From NCBI RefSeq assembly GCF_011604685.1, contig NZ_CP050063.1, positions 62,001 through 126,000 of the forward strand: a stretch of DNA of 64,000 bases, given 5' to 3'. This DNA comes from Spirosoma aureum (GTDB lineage Bacteria > Bacteroidota > Bacteroidia > Cytophagales > Spirosomataceae). The notes beneath the pieces are model-generated. The model saw only the letters and a list, made by a program, of their open reading frames with translations, ran no database searches and was not told where the DNA came from. The number at the start of each line of letters is the position of its first letter. Positions within the stretch are counted from its first letter, which is position 1. Position numbers and translations under genes: made by a program. Positions 2,654 to 58,487 of this stretch are shown one piece after another.

Positions 2654-3742
2654 TTAGAACTTCACTACGCTCTCATAGGCTTTTTTGGGCTGTCCGTTCT
2701 GATCGAATAGCAACGGATAATCTTTGCGGCCCGGAACCGGAAAATTGTCCAGCCAGGAATATTTGTCGGTCAGATTCCAGAACGTAACGCCCGTGATCTT
2801 GTCGCGGTGCTTGCGAAACACCTCGAACAGCATTTTGTAATGGTCTGCCTGTTTGTCGTTCATTTCGGGCGTAAACTCGCTTTTGTCGGTATCGCGACGG
2901 GCCCGACGCTCGTGCTCTTTCGGGTAAACAGATACGTCAACTTCCGTGAACTGCACCTTTAGGCCCAGGCTGGCAAACTTATTAATTGACTCGTCAAGCT
3001 CCTGTTTAGTAGGCTCGTAGATAGACCAGTGAGCCTGTAAACCCACTCCGTTGATGGGAACTCCTTTTTCTTTAAGCTTCTTTAGTAATTGGTAGATACG
3101 TTGCCGCTTCGATGCGTTTTCGGTATTGTAATCGTTGTAAAACAATTGCGCGGAGGGGTCGGCTTCATGGGCATACTGAAACGCCTTCTCAATATATTCC
3201 TCCCCAATGATTTCGTAAAACTTCGTCCTACGATATATGCCGGTACCCGTATCAGGAACAGCTTCGTTCACGACGTCCCAGGCATAGATTTTTCCTTTAT
3301 ATCGACCCATTACGTCGGTAATGTGCCGCTTCAGGCGAGCCAGCAGTACTTCCCGGCTCACGGCTTTACCTGTTGAATCGGTAAAAAACCAGCGGGGTGT
3401 CTGGTTGTGCCAGCAAAGCGTGTGGCCTCGCAGTTTGATCTTGTACAGCTGGGCAAAGTCGGCGATGGCGTCGGCATCATTCCAGTAGTAACGGTTCTCC
3501 TCCGGATGGATGGGTCCCATTTTCATCGCATTTTCGGGCGTCATGCTATTAAACTGAGCTTTAATCAGCTCGGCATCCGGACCGGGTTGCACCATACGCG
3601 GGTTGACAGCCACCCCGATGGGAAAATAGTTTTTATAGGCTTCTTTTAACGTGGGCTGAGCCGTCTGGTAACCTGGCTCCATCGTTGCTCCCGTAGCGAT
3701 CAGACCACCCAGCAATACCGTTAATCCTGTTAATTTTTTCAT
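2654..3742 (-). CDS. GH10 endo-1,4-beta-xylanase
   Basis: This 362-residue protein has an N-terminal export signal (residues 1 to about 20) followed by a single GH10 barrel. Visible family motifs are NSMTPENAMKMG (66-76), LRGHTLCWHNQTP (104-116), WDVVNEAV with acid/base Glu160, and VQFTEVDVS with nucleophile Glu267. The late WNLTDKYSWL segment is the usual GH10 aglycone-side motif. It cleaves internal beta-1,4 bonds of the xylan backbone. There is no carbohydrate-binding module, and the length fits a single-domain periplasmic xylanase. It lies 25 bases downstream of the tandem esterase gene in the same minus-strand operon, so backbone cutting and ester removal are probably co-expressed. Confidence 0.95.
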   Translation of the reverse strand: MKKLTGLTVLLGGLIATGATMEPGYQTAQPTLKEAYKNYFPIGVAVNPRMVQPGPDAELIKAQFNSMTPENAMKMGPIHPEENRYYWNDADAIADFAQLYKIKLRGHTLCWHNQTPRWFFTDSTGKAVSREVLLARLKRHITDVMGRYKGKIYAWDVVNEAVPDTGTGIYRRTKFYEIIGEEYIEKAFQYAHEADPSAQLFYNDYNTENASKRQRIYQLLKKLKEKGVPINGVGLQAHWSIYEPTKQELDESINKFASLGLKVQFTEVDVSVYPKEHERRARRDTDKSEFTPEMNDKQADHYKMLFEVFRKHRDKITGVTFWNLTDKYSWLDNFPVPGRKDYPLLFDQNGQPKKAYESVVKF

Positions 3743-3767
3743 GATTCGTTAGGGTAAAGGGCTTCTA

Positions 3768-5711
<1,944 letters not shown>

Positions 5712-53830: not shown

Positions 53831-55333
53831 ATGGGAATTCGCTCAGTCGTAAGTAAGCCACTGGCTAAATGGGTCGTAGAGAGGCAGCAGTCGTGGATGT
53901 ATCAACCCGCCGAAGCTCAGCAACATTGGTTGCAGGAGTTGGTTAAAGGTGGTCGCAACACGGTGTTTGGCCGTATTCACCACTTTCGGGATATACAAAC
54001 GGTTGACGATTTTCGGCAAGCGGTTCCCGTACGCGATTACGAAGATCTCAAACCTTACATTGATCAGATCCTGGCTGGTACACCTGATGTGCTCTGGAAA
54101 GGTCAACCCCTGTACCTGGCCAAAACCTCAGGTACGACCTCGGGTACAAAATACATCCCGATTACGAAGGATTCCATTCCGAACCACATCAACTCAGCCC
54201 GTGATGCGCTTCTGAATTACATCTACGAAACGGGAAACAGTGCTTTTCTCGACAAAAAACTCATTTTCCTGTCGGGTAGCCCCGAACTGGCTCAGAAAGC
54301 GGGTATCAATATCGGACGGTTGTCTGGCATAGCCAATCACCATGTTCCGGCTTATCTACGCTCGAACCAGCTACCCAGCTACGAAACCAATGTTATCGAC
54401 GATTGGGAAACCAAGCTGGAGCGGATCATCGACGAAACGTTAACGCAGCCAATGTCGTTGATCTCGGGCATTCCGCCCTGGGTACAGATGTATTTCGACC
54501 GGATTCAGGACCGAACTGGAAAGTTGATTAAAGATGTCTTCCCTGATTTTTCGGTGTTTGTCTACGGTGGCGTTAATTTTGAACCATACCGCGCTAAATT
54601 GTTTGATAGCATCGGCAAGCGGATCGATTCGATCGAAACCTATCCGGCATCGGAAGGCTTTATCGCTTTTCAGGATACGCAGACTGAAGAAGGCTTGTTG
54701 ATGCTACTCGATAGCGGGATCTTCTTCGAGTTCATTGCCGCCGACGAATACTTTACTGAAAACCCACGCCGACTAACGATTGATGAGGTCGAACTAGGCA
54801 AAAATTACGCTGTCATCATCAACAACAACGCCGGGCTGTGGGGCTATTCTCTGGGCGATACGGTTAAATTTGTTTCACGGGAGCCTTACCGATTACTCGT
54901 AACCGGCCGTATCAAGCACTTTATTTCGGCCTTTGGCGAACATGTTATTGGCGAAGAAGTTGAAAAAGCCTTACAGTATGCGATGCAGCTTCACCCCGAA
55001 ACAGAGGTCGTAGAGTTTACGGTTGCACCAATGGTTAGCCCGAAAGAAGGCCTGCCCTATCACGAATGGTTAATTGAATTTGCTACTCCCCCCAACGATC
55101 CGGCAATCTTTGCCCGCGACATCGACAACCGATTAATCGGATTAAACGTATATTACGACGACCTCATCACGGGCTCGATCCTGCAACCGCTCAAGCTAAC
55201 CAGCCTGCCGCGCGGGGCATTTCAGCGCTACATGAAGTCGCAGGGAAAACTGGGTGGCCAAAATAAAGTACCCCGTTTAGCTAATGACCGGAAAATTGCG
55301 GAGGGGTTAGAAGGAATAATGTCCAATGCCTAA
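53831..55333 (+). CDS. GH3-family acyl-adenylating enzyme
   Basis: The 500-residue protein matches the GH3 auxin-responsive-promoter family. It has the ATP-binding loop LAKTSGTTSGTKYIPIT (about 94-110), the middle motif FVYGGVNFEPYRAKL and the adenylate-binding ETYPASEGFIAFQD. The C-terminal cap has RYMKSQGKLGGQNKVPRLANDR. Plant members join amino acids to acyl acids. Bacterial members are widespread in Bacteroidota and have no firmly known substrate. It is the first gene of a plus-strand run and ends 13 bases before the AAA ATPase gene. Confidence 0.9.
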   Translation: MGIRSVVSKPLAKWVVERQQSWMYQPAEAQQHWLQELVKGGRNTVFGRIHHFRDIQTVDDFRQAVPVRDYEDLKPYIDQILAGTPDVLWKGQPLYLAKTSGTTSGTKYIPITKDSIPNHINSARDALLNYIYETGNSAFLDKKLIFLSGSPELAQKAGINIGRLSGIANHHVPAYLRSNQLPSYETNVIDDWETKLERIIDETLTQPMSLISGIPPWVQMYFDRIQDRTGKLIKDVFPDFSVFVYGGVNFEPYRAKLFDSIGKRIDSIETYPASEGFIAFQDTQTEEGLLMLLDSGIFFEFIAADEYFTENPRRLTIDEVELGKNYAVIINNNAGLWGYSLGDTVKFVSREPYRLLVTGRIKHFISAFGEHVIGEEVEKALQYAMQLHPETEVVEFTVAPMVSPKEGLPYHEWLIEFATPPNDPAIFARDIDNRLIGLNVYYDDLITGSILQPLKLTSLPRGAFQRYMKSQGKLGGQNKVPRLANDRKIAEGLEGIMSNA

Positions 55334-55346
55334 TGAATAATGGGTA

Positions 55347-56744
55347 ATGAAAATAACAGGAATCGACATTGGCGACTATCGCCAGTTTAAAAATATAAAG
55401 TTTGATTTTACGTATCCGGCCGACCACCCAACCAAAGCAGGGCAGCCGTTGGATAAGGTATGCTTTATTGGGCAGAGCGGTACAGGGAAAACGACGTTGC
55501 TAAATGTAATTTGGGATTTCTTTCAGGTTGTCTTAGATAGTTATCAACGGGTATCTCTTAAAAATACTTTAGTAAACAATGAATCATATTCCACTTTTGA
55601 AGAAACAAAAATTTACTCAATTTATAATGAGAAGAGAATTATTTTAAACTACACCGATCTTAAAAACAAATTCGACTACACTTATCAAGATCTAGATGGT
55701 AAATCTAGATACGGACAATTAGGATACGATTGGCTTAATGGACTCGGCATTTATGATTCTTTAAAAAATCAGGAACAGGCGAAAAAACTTTGTCTTTTTA
55801 TTAAGGATTCCATTGCCCGAGAAGCCGATGCATTCCTGTTTGACCAGAAAGAACAACCACAATCTTTTTCAGATTTCGTAAAGACCGACACACAAATTGA
55901 AAAAGAAAAAATAGCACACGTCGAACGTATCAATGCGGCTGGCTCTAAAAAAGTGGTTTCATTAGGAGATATGCAATCATTATCTACCTGGCAATATTTA
56001 CTTAGAGAAATCAATCAGTACGACGAAGATACTGTACAGCAGATCACGAAAATTATTCAAAGTACACCCAAAAACAAAGTAACTGAAGATCTTCAAAAAT
56101 GGATTGCTGCTGATCCGCGTATTGATCTAGCCGAAAAATGCTTAAACCCACTTTTGAAAAAATTTTTCCTAGAAGTCAATATTGGCGCGAAGGGTAATTC
56201 TCCAATCGCACTTTGTAAAAGTAATAAGCAGGATATTGCAATTCCTAGCTCTAATCTCAGCACTGGTACACGCCAACTTCTGGCTACTGCTATCCCAATT
56301 TATAAATTCGATACAGAAGATACAGTTATACTCTTTGATGAACCGGAACGTTCTTTATTTCCTGACATTCAACGCGGGCTCATTGGCTATTATACATCAC
56401 TTGCTCCTACAGCACAGTTTTTCTTCGCTACTCACTCGCCCATTATCGCATCTGCTTTTGAGCCATGCGAACGGTTCATTCTGTATTTTGACGAGAATGG
56501 CGAAGTGAAGTTCCATAACGGTATTGCGCCAGAAGGCGACGACCCAAATGATATTTTGCGACAGGATTTTGCTATGGCCGACTTGATGTTACAGAAAGGA
56601 TTGGAAGCTTACGAAAAGTACCGCCAGCTTGCTATGCAGATTCGGGCAGAAACTGATGAGGAAAAGAAAAATCAACTTATTATCGAGCGGCTAGAGCTAG
56701 GAAATCGATACAATTTTGCTGGTCAATATGCGCAGAGTAAATAA
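55347..56744 (+). CDS. ptuA-like: AAA/SMC-like ATPase of a Septu-like defence pair
   Basis: The 465-residue protein has an SMC/ABC-like ATPase split by a helical insert: Walker A GQSGTGKT (42-49), an insert of about 240 residues, the signature SSNLSTGTRQLL (301-312), Walker B VILFDEPE (327-334) and the switch His363 in FATHSP. It begins with the MKITGIDIGDYRQFKNIKFDF strand typical of AAA_21/AAA_23 ATPases. With the HNH-like gene that overlaps its end it resembles PtuA of Septu systems, where the ATPase controls the nuclease. The gene is visibly more AT-rich than the flanking GH3 and dxr genes, which suggests transfer. An OLD- or retron-linked ATPase is possible, but no reverse transcriptase or Toprim domain is present. 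Confidence 0.75.
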   Translation: MKITGIDIGDYRQFKNIKFDFTYPADHPTKAGQPLDKVCFIGQSGTGKTTLLNVIWDFFQVVLDSYQRVSLKNTLVNNESYSTFEETKIYSIYNEKRIILNYTDLKNKFDYTYQDLDGKSRYGQLGYDWLNGLGIYDSLKNQEQAKKLCLFIKDSIAREADAFLFDQKEQPQSFSDFVKTDTQIEKEKIAHVERINAAGSKKVVSLGDMQSLSTWQYLLREINQYDEDTVQQITKIIQSTPKNKVTEDLQKWIAADPRIDLAEKCLNPLLKKFFLEVNIGAKGNSPIALCKSNKQDIAIPSSNLSTGTRQLLATAIPIYKFDTEDTVILFDEPERSLFPDIQRGLIGYYTSLAPTAQFFFATHSPIIASAFEPCERFILYFDENGEVKFHNGIAPEGDDPNDILRQDFAMADLMLQKGLEAYEKYRQLAMQIRAETDEEKKNQLIIERLELGNRYNFAGQYAQSK

Positions 56745-57318
56745 ACCCGACGATTCGACAGTTTTGATGAGTGATTTGACCTACAAAGTTGATGGCAATA
56801 ACAAAAGTTTAGCAAATGCTCTTTGTGATGAACAACATAATATTTGTGCCTATACAGAAACGTATCTAGGCCGTTCTGACAAAAAGGATATTGAACATTT
56901 CAACCCTACTCTAAAAAACACTTCTGGGGACAGCTATCAAAATTGGTTTTTAGTTAAAGCGCAGTGGAACGGCGAAAAAGCATCAAAATGGAATGACTAT
57001 CAACCTATTCTGCACCCAACAGACAAGCAATTTGAAAAACGGATCATTTATTTTGAAGGTGAATATATTGCGGCTTCGTCTGAAGACCAGGAAGCACTTA
57101 ATTTAATTAGCCTATTAAAATTAGACGACCCTGATCTAGCAATCGAACGTCGCTGCTATTTAGAAAACCTTAAAGAGAACCTTGACTTATATGGAAAACC
57201 TGCCCAGCAATATGTAGATTATTTATTGACGACAAGGCCCAGTTTGGTCTATTATATCCGCGCTATTGAAGAAGAATTACAGGTAAAAGTCAATTTTGAC
57301 TTGGTGAAAACTAAATGA
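56728..57318 (+). CDS. ptuB-like: HNH-like nuclease of a Septu-like defence pair
   Basis: I use the ATG at 56728. A TTG at 56716 is also open. The start overlaps the ATPase gene by 17 bases. The 196-residue protein has the arrangement of PtuB/TIGR02646-type HNH proteins: Cys40 in NICAYTE, then Asp54-Ile-Glu-His57 in KKDIEHFNP, Asn72-Trp in SYQNWFLV, and HPTDKQFEKRIIYFEGEYI in the second half. PtuB-type proteins usually show CxYC, while here the second position is Thr43, so the zinc site may be reduced. The last base triplet TGA overlaps the ATG of dxr. Assignment rests on motif pattern and context. Confidence 0.65.
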   Translation: MRRVNKPDDSTVLMSDLTYKVDGNNKSLANALCDEQHNICAYTETYLGRSDKKDIEHFNPTLKNTSGDSYQNWFLVKAQWNGEKASKWNDYQPILHPTDKQFEKRIIYFEGEYIAASSEDQEALNLISLLKLDDPDLAIERRCYLENLKENLDLYGKPAQQYVDYLLTTRPSLVYYIRAIEEELQVKVNFDLVKTK

Positions 57319-58487
57319 CTGATATAAAAAAACGCCATATCGCCATCCTTGGCTCGACGGGCTCCATCGGAACGCAGGCCGTTGATGTGGTCAAGAGCCA
57401 TCCCGACCAGTTTCAGGTCGAAGTGCTGACGACCAACAACAATGCGGACTTACTCATTGAGCAGGCCATCGATCTGAAACCTAACGTTGTCGTGATCTGC
57501 AACGAGACCAAGTACGATCAGGTATTTGGCGCGCTCGATCCGCTAGGCATTAAGGTATATGCAGGGGCCAAAGCGATAGCGTCGGTCGTGCAGATGGACA
57601 CGATTGACATGGTACTGACCGCTATGGTTGGCTATGCGGGTTTACTGCCGACTATTAAAGCGATTGAAGCCGGAAAATCCATCGCACTGGCCAATAAAGA
57701 AACCCTTGTCGTTGCGGGCGAGCTTATTACCCGACTGGCAGCCCAAAAGGGCGTCAATATCTATCCGGTTGATTCTGAACATTCAGCGATTTTCCAGTGT
57801 CTGGTTGGTGAGTTTCACAACCCGATTGAGAAAATTATCCTGACCGCATCGGGAGGTCCCTTCCGGGGGAAATCGCGGGAATTTCTATCGACAGTTACGA
57901 AAGCGCAGGCGCTTAAACACCCCAACTGGACCATGGGCGCCAAGATCACGATCGACTCGGCTACGCTCATGAACAAAGGGCTGGAAGTAATCGAAGCGAA
58001 ATGGCTTTTCGGCCTGACGCCCGCCCAGATCGACGTAATCGTGCATCCACAGAGCATTATTCACTCGCTGGTTCAGTTTGAAGACGGGAGTCTGAAAGCC
58101 CAGATGGGACTGCCCGATATGCGACTGCCGATTCAGTTCGCCCTGGGGTATCCGAATCGATTACCGTCCAATTTTCCTCGTTTCAATTTTCTGGACTATC
58201 CATCCCTAACCTTTGAAAAGCCGGACCTGGAAACATTTAGAAACCTCCAACTCGCTTTCGAAGCTCTCGATCGGGGTGGCAATGCCCCTTGTATCATCAA
58301 CGCAGCCAATGAAGTAGCCGTAGACGCGTTTCTTCACGATCAGATTGGTTTTCTGGAAATTTCGGAGATAATTGAATTATGTTTAGCGAAATCGACCTTC
58401 ATTCAGAATCCGACTTATGACGATTACGTCAACTCGGACGACGAAGCCCGCCGATTAGCTTCAGAACGAATTAAAAGTTTTGTTTAG
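57315..58487 (+). CDS. dxr: 1-deoxy-D-xylulose 5-phosphate reductoisomerase
   Basis: The 390-residue protein has the NADPH-binding start IAILGSTGSIGTQAVDVV (9-26), the metal and substrate residues in NIYPVDSEHSAIFQCL and ILTASGGPFRG, then MGAKITIDSATLMNKGLEVIEA, VHPQSIIHSLVQFEDGS and NAANEVAVDAFL. It catalyses the first committed step of the MEP isoprenoid pathway in the cytoplasm and is normally essential. Its ATG overlaps the stop of the upstream HNH gene in an ATGA, so its translation may depend on the inserted module unless a start lies within it. Confidence 0.97.
   Translation: MTDIKKRHIAILGSTGSIGTQAVDVVKSHPDQFQVEVLTTNNNADLLIEQAIDLKPNVVVICNETKYDQVFGALDPLGIKVYAGAKAIASVVQMDTIDMVLTAMVGYAGLLPTIKAIEAGKSIALANKETLVVAGELITRLAAQKGVNIYPVDSEHSAIFQCLVGEFHNPIEKIILTASGGPFRGKSREFLSTVTKAQALKHPNWTMGAKITIDSATLMNKGLEVIEAKWLFGLTPAQIDVIVHPQSIIHSLVQFEDGSLKAQMGLPDMRLPIQFALGYPNRLPSNFPRFNFLDYPSLTFEKPDLETFRNLQLAFEALDRGGNAPCIINAANEVAVDAFLHDQIGFLEISEIIELCLAKSTFIQNPTYDDYVNSDDEARRLASERIKSFV

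Follow-up and report, generated by a model that had tools for sequence, protein, structure and literature searches.

Among the described relatives of the gene pair considered here, Septu EcB88 of Escherichia coli cuts the variable loop of tRNA-Tyr, its ATPase and HNH residues both being required (PMC13096335), retron-Eco7 PtuAB degrades tRNA-Tyr (PMC11555353), and the Septu of E. coli ATCC25922 has a reported action on nicked DNA (PMC11555353). As regards genomic setting, two further reports describe the core defence hotspots cDHS1 and cDHS2 of Pseudomonas aeruginosa, with variable defence content between fixed core genes (PMC10250203), and integrase-free hotspots, in which recombination at the core genes on either side generates diversity (Oliveira et al. 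2017, PMC5635113). Here we analyze a ptuA/ptuB pair at positions 55347–57318 of a window of 64,000 nucleotides from Spirosoma aureum (assembly GCF_011604685.1, contig NZ_CP050063.1, positions 62,001 to 126,000 of the forward strand; all coordinates below are those of the window, and all features lie on its forward strand). Its locus, the gap between a GH3-family gene and dxr, is fixed, the modules in it turn over, and the Septu genes are mosaic. The pair is probably a type I Septu in a long-lived single-slot hotspot of Spirosoma and its relatives, served by homologous recombination and exchanging both whole modules and parts of Septu.

ptuA (55347..56744) begins with ATG and encodes an ABC/AAA_15-type ATPase of 465 aa that matches the PADLOC profile PtuA1 (PDLC00274) over its full length with E 2e-129 and Pfam AAA_15 with E 7e-23. 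ptuB (56728..57318), whose reading frame overlaps that of ptuA over 56728–56744, encodes an HNH-type nuclease of 196 aa matching the PADLOC profile PtuB1 (PDLC00347), also over its full length, with E 4e-84; its start is most likely the ATG at 56728, the alternative being a TTG at 56716. At the level of sequence, these matches are far beyond chance and the pair is confirmed as Septu type I PtuA/PtuB. Among 23 aligned alleles of PtuA, K48 (Walker A), D331 and E332 (Walker B), S305, G307 and Q310 (signature) and H363 (H-loop) are invariant, a Walker B text pattern missing G201 and G048 solely through one neighbouring residue; in PtuB, H57, N72 and N81 are invariant in an alignment of 24. Compared as a profile with solved structures, PtuA matches AriA (2e-10) and PtuA 8ee4 (2e-9). 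The pair is not a PARIS system: the AriA profile (E 2.9e-20) is weaker than that of PtuA, and the partner matches PtuB, not the AriB Toprim protein. The best match of the AlphaFold model of PtuB is, with modest confidence, 9u9y_H of the retron Ec78 effector complex (prob 0.99, TMq 0.55, E 0.03). Neither a retron reverse transcriptase nor an msr-msd is among the immediate neighbours, GH3 and dxr, the rest of the genome not having been searched for a retron. The genome is a single contig of 8.9 Mb, in which this ptuA was matched once.

A sequence-only reading of the window had placed an ATPase gene and an overlapping HNH gene between a GH3 gene and dxr, and reading frames, Pfam and PADLOC bear this out. 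It was also right that both genes are richer in AT than their neighbours (GC 0.33–0.43 over ptuAB versus about 0.47–0.52 for the flanking genes) and that the second gene runs into dxr, the ptuB TGA at 57316–57318 overlapping the dxr ATG at 57315–57317 in a shared ATGA (57315..57318). The likeness to PtuA/PtuB that it proposed stands on the full-length PADLOC profiles, but does not extend to the NCBIfam models of retron Ec78 PtuA and PtuB (NF041760, 39.1 bits against a cut-off of 500; NF041761, 34.5 against 150) or to TIGR02646 (22.2 against 52.15), all far below their cut-offs.

We surveyed 222 genomes of the family Spirosomataceae, one per species. dxr was matched in 214 of them, once in each except G021, which has two matches, and ptuA was matched at E 1e-20 in 43. 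The close full-length relatives of ptuA, 23 including that of the window and 51–73% identical to it, all occupy the GH3-dxr gap in the orientation of dxr; a 24th (G160), cut by a contig end, is also at the slot, visible from the dxr side only, and G182 has a 52-residue piece of ptuA in the gap. By their listed coordinates, 22 weaker matches (32–46% identity) are on a contig other than that of the listed dxr or distant on the same contig (G157, G199), the place of dxr in G127 not being listed. ptuAB is found at the GH3-dxr gap in Spirosoma, Larkinella, Fibrella, Rudanella, Arsenicibacter and Fibrisoma. Among GTDB loci with E 5e-103 or better, some of them short, dxr lies behind ptuB in 17 of 78, mostly from the same species as the family genomes, and is absent from the other 61. 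On a tree of GH3 plus dxr, ptuAB (with relics scored as present) switches between presence and absence 11 times, versus a mean of 10.9 with shuffled labels. ptuAB is an old resident of the GH3-dxr gap, not a fresh insertion.

Some individual records deserve mention. In the homologue P0120, the predicted protein also includes a GH3 C-terminal domain, which points to this same neighbourhood, and P0066, a PtuA homologue of 653 aa, is perhaps a PtuA-PtuB fusion. In the record of Flavobacterium sp. SUN052 (L156), mreB, GH3, dxr and rseP are 79–98% like those of the window, and the GH3-dxr gap holds ptuAB and a ParE-like gene (62%); it is probably a mislabelled genome.

The alleles at this locus are mosaic. 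PtuA has a conserved N segment (codons 1–60, 55347..55526) with the Walker A motif GQSGTGKTT, a hypervariable middle, M (codons 61–300, 55527..56246; M1, 61–150, and M2, 151–300), a conserved C segment (codons 331–405, 56337..56561) with Walker B FDEPE and H-loop ATHSP, and a tail, T (codons 406–465, 56562..56741). Over the 253 pairs formed by 23 alleles, mean identity is 0.83 for N, 0.32 for M and 0.86 for C, and the boundaries of M fall near codon 60 and at about codons 320–340. In Mantel tests on these pairs, GH3 and dxr vary together (rho 0.91, p 0.0002), and so do the tail and the body of PtuB (rho 0.77, p 0.0002); M correlates with the flanks at a rho of 0.06–0.07 (M with dxr 0.06, p 0.20) and with the tail at −0.01 (p 0.50). 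At the thresholds chosen, four M2 types and three PtuB types occur in 9 of the 12 combinations among the 23 alleles, and on the flank tree the types change 11 times for M2 (9.8 with shuffled labels) and 11 times for PtuB (10.9). The exchange of PtuA residues 61–300 is thus unlinked to the flanks and almost unlinked to PtuB, and the tail, co-inherited with PtuB, travels with it.

The same structure can be read directly from individual pairs of genomes. Between G000 and G185, flanks are about 95% identical and identity remains 95–98% up to about ptuA codon 60, drops to 31–53% over 55600–56299, returns to 97–100% over 56400–56599, falls again to 54–78% from 56700 through most of ptuB and reaches 99% at the last bases before dxr. 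The sisters G201 and G189, with neighbouring genes 98–99% identical, share 98% of the PtuB body, 100% of the C segment and a near-identical tail, versus 28% of the middle, which is the one part replaced. Third codon positions tell the same: in the two closest sister pairs their identity in M is 0.34 and 0.36 (flanks 0.83–0.87), and in three more distant species pairs it is 0.61–0.67, above that of the flanks (0.49–0.56). The middles of G190, G189 and G198 are 76–80% alike, again with third-position identity above that of the flanks.

In a broader set of 116 homologues (the 120 most similar to a single query, less four dropped for length; such a selection biases M identity upwards), mean identity is 0.82 for N, 0.15 for M1, 0.37 for M2, 0.85 for C and 0.58 for the tail, and correlations between segments are all at most 0.25. 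P0065 and P0069 differ almost solely in M1, and among the 95 pairs of this set in which N, C and T each reach 0.85 or more, M2 is below 0.5 in 70. The nearest relative of M was in the same pool for 23 of 23 alleles, and comparison with 61 outside loci gave no sign that M is imported from other lineages of PtuA, the best outside match being weaker in 23 of 23. As a comparison family we took the best 120 PtuA proteins by similarity to one Paenimyroides protein from a locus without dxr (L160), the loci of the other 119 being unplaced; the upward bias in M identity applies to this set too. Here M1 is variable, M2 less so, and the segments are partly correlated; in the 228 pairs with N, C and T at least 0.85, M2 averages 0.75 and is never below 0.48, and M1 averages 0.54, down to 0.09.

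The slot also receives modules unrelated to Septu. Of 36 genomes of the genus, 34 have a dxr match; G206 and G209 (no dxr) and G207 (dxr at a contig start) were unusable, leaving 33 loci, in which the slot is filled or holds relics in 32, only a few other junctions having been examined for contrast. GH3 (53831..55333; Pfam GH3, GH3_M and GH3_C) is the conserved left neighbour in the window and in 32 of the 32 other genus loci examined, and dxr (57315..58487; Pfam DXP reductoisomerase domains) is the conserved right one. Intact ptuAB is present in 17 of the 33 slots: alone in 11, together with MNT/HepT in G195 and G192, with RelB/ParE in G211, and with a lone MNT gene in G201, G189 and G199. 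Relics of ptuAB remain in G184 and in G182, where a DDE transposase frame separates the pieces. MNT/HepT fills eight slots (with MNT broken in G216 and HepT short in G214) and has left relics, judged by eye, in G210 and G208; RelB/ParE is alone in G205, and the slot of G212 is empty. For the proteins tried, Pfam supports NTP_transf_2, HepT-like, ParE, HEPN, RelE and Glyco_trans_1_4, the RelB-like protein being below cut-off. Across the 33 loci, differing defence and toxin-antitoxin modules thus lie between fixed core flanks, as in a hotspot. A HepT of the query type (at least 53% identity) is at dxr in 13 of 14 cases, the query included, and elsewhere in G048.

In other genera, GH3 is upstream of dxr in 22 of 40 loci and not upstream of it in the remaining 18. 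Fourteen of the 22 have a short empty gap, seven hold MNT genes with or without an intact HepT/HEPN partner, and G178 has a gap of 0.7 kb without a reading frame of 70 aa. Since an MNT gene precedes dxr in G110 (L113, Fibrella), where GH3 was not found upstream, the modules may track dxr rather than GH3. In G039 (L126), with no GH3 at this place, a RelE-like gene precedes dxr, accompanied by a partner of 83 aa and a gene of 182 aa, both of them without Pfam match. Lone MNT genes of two types, without a HepT/HEPN partner, stand between GH3 and ptuA in L087, L088 and L091 (G201, G189 and G199) and in L098 (G112); the three tried (L087, L091, L098) match Pfam NTP_transf_2, and such a gene could be a relic or a regulator.

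As the last gene of the slot, ptuB has its stop inside the dxr start in 21 of 21 alleles, by 4 bases in 20 and by 8 in one Larkinella, the dxr starts of both Larkinella having been set by eye. In the genus, 9 of 10 HepT genes, G214 being the exception, overlap dxr by 4 or 8 bases, and 2 of 2 ParE genes do so by 8. Since these occupants likewise run into the dxr start, the overlap is a feature of the slot and not of Septu. A special nucleotide constraint at the ptuB end, such as a dxr start signal or promoter, is not claimed, third positions in invariant-amino-acid columns being barely more conserved there (0.73 versus 0.56–0.66).

Two junctions served as clean controls. Between rseP and lon there are no inserts in 29 loci, with gaps of 631–712 bases holding the same small gene (one further locus is without rseP in view), and the overlapping response-regulator/kinase junction of the window has none in 30, with gaps of −10 to 107. 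From these, an enrichment of the slot over ordinary junctions is suggested.

How the slot is renewed can be proposed in outline. Homologous recombination at conserved sequences, that is, the flanking genes and the conserved parts of ptuA, would serve it, and whole modules (Septu, MNT/HepT, MNT/HEPN, RelB/ParE) would be replaced by this route; such replacement was rejected as the sole process, the ends of PtuA staying alike while the middle changes. We give about an even chance to a more specific proposal, in which PtuA 61–300 is a swappable recognition cassette, like a target-recognition domain, and the tail with PtuB is a second, separately moving effector cassette, so that a single immune slot within an essential isoprenoid operon would generate combinatorial Septu specificities across the family. 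The middle would then recognize a phage trigger or a target nucleic acid, and the tail would be a docking surface for PtuB. On infection, the HNH nuclease would cut nucleic acid of the cell or the phage (tRNA in two studied relatives), the pair presumably acting in defence; it could cut RNA or DNA, since relatives cut tRNA-Tyr while another Septu reportedly acts on DNA. Phage pressure may maintain the diversity, and the overlap with dxr would let modules share operon expression without silencing dxr, and may couple them to dxr translation.

The AT-rich composition of the pair and its ATGA overlap with dxr would also fit a recent horizontal insertion of Septu beside dxr, retained since its loss harms dxr expression, and the fact that unrelated slot modules overlap the dxr start agrees with such coupled retention. 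However, the pair sits in the same gap in all the genera named above, and relics and an empty slot occur with dxr present, so that modules can be lost; this account is quite improbable. A recent mobile-element insertion was likewise rejected as the main account: no relative was confirmed in the viral contigs scanned (with two short patterns) or in phages, plasmids gave one weak match, and close relatives are found only at dxr. The sequence-only reading had taken the composition as a sign of transfer, and this survives as an exchange of segments between species, not as a fresh insertion; compared across relatives, the gap holds ptuAB in several genera, but other modules, relics or nothing in other species. 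Its suggestion that the overlap could stop the host from losing the module fails in its strong form, ptuAB having decayed to relics beside an intact dxr in G182 and G184, with other modules elsewhere and one slot in 33 empty. Coupling to an essential gene also underlies the idea of a selfish addiction locus, in which toxin-type modules persist by that coupling and not by defence: most occupants are toxin-antitoxin or toxin-like and mostly end inside the dxr start, and some genomes have HicBA directly behind dxr. Against it are the decay and loss just described (relics in 4 of 33 genus genomes, 1 empty) and the exchange of PtuA cassettes, which fits recognition diversity better than mere persistence, and we consider it unlikely. 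Finally, conservation of the locus in several genera and strongly divergent middles could reflect purely vertical descent without recombination, the PtuA middle gathering point mutations quickly because of diversifying selection. This is contradicted by the third codon positions, with M far below the flanks in sister pairs and above them in three distant pairs, and by the sharp segment boundaries, and is highly improbable.

Several observations weigh against a recombining defence hotspot or limit its reach. Small but nominally significant correlations link M with PtuB (0.12, p 0.047), N with M (0.15, p 0.021) and N with GH3 (0.38, p 0.010). For the C segment, which is conserved and varies little, the link to the flanks is not significant (rho with dxr 0.16, p 0.13), so that exchange may extend to this part as well. 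Since M1 is also variable in the comparison family, where M2 follows the other segments more closely, the pattern may be partly general to PtuA: exchange of M1 may be common to PtuA and that of M2 stronger at the dxr locus. The predicted model of PtuA is of low confidence (pLDDT 64). Two slots, in G215 (L073) and G200 (L083), are filled by a GT4-type glycosyltransferase of 405–420 aa, which might be an unrecognised conflict gene, the Pfam match 'GT4-conflict' being just below cut-off in G215. Neighbouring junctions are not always empty either: at mreB-GH3, 2 of 36 loci have a wider gap with an unassigned gene of 133–140 aa, and a HicB/HicA-like pair, of which Pfam supports HicA and not HicB, lies directly behind dxr in 4 of 33 genus genomes (G188, G203, G192, G213; L279–L282) and in G159 and G160 (L094, L099). 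The distance from dxr to lon is 3694–3795 in those four and 3290–3408 in the other 29. Because of HicBA at dxr-rseP, which was dropped as an empty control, and of the extra gene at mreB-GH3, the slot is richer than its neighbours, not unique; modules accumulate on either side of dxr, in front of it much more frequently than behind. The HicBA finding weakens one control and leaves the main contrast standing. G192 carries modules on both sides, ptuAB and MNT/HepT before dxr and HicBA after it.

Neither the GH3-dxr locus nor an exchange of PtuA cassettes was found in the published literature searched, with subscription journals mostly outside reach. That hotspots are renewed via flanking core genes is known; a slot located within an apparent essential operon and cassette exchange inside a gene are, within that literature, apparently undescribed. 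The statements on PtuAB cited above concern what is cut, not what PtuA senses. The natural exchange map points to PtuA residues for tests of recognition, for which near-isogenic natural pairs exist that share their neighbours and PtuB but not the middle. It also seems from this locus that a slot for defence or toxin modules can persist inside an apparent essential operon, its content being renewed without a recognised mobile element, and anything found between GH3 and dxr in the family is a candidate system, an aid to discovery.

With Septu type I and the PtuAB of retron-Eco7 (Ec78), the window pair has in common an ATPase and an HNH partner, conserved Walker and HNH residues and full-length PADLOC profiles, and its predicted PtuB is nearest the retron Ec78 effector complex. 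It differs from retron Ec78 by having no retron partner as an immediate neighbour and by falling far below the NCBIfam cut-offs, and from known Septu by its fixed dxr slot and exchangeable PtuA middle. In type I restriction, the target-recognition domains of HsdS are exchanged; by analogy, both proteins have a swappable segment between conserved parts, which serves recognition in HsdS and putatively in PtuA, whereas PtuA provides the ATPase of a system with an HNH nuclease. Like cDHS1 and cDHS2, the slot has defence content varying between fixed core genes, but it lies between two co-directional genes, spans no more than 2.7 kb and takes just one or two small modules, which mostly overlap the dxr start, and this holds across genera. 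As in the integrase-free hotspots, content turns over between core genes without recognisable mobile elements; in contrast to these, the dxr slot apparently lies inside an essential operon, and exchange reaches into the defence gene itself.
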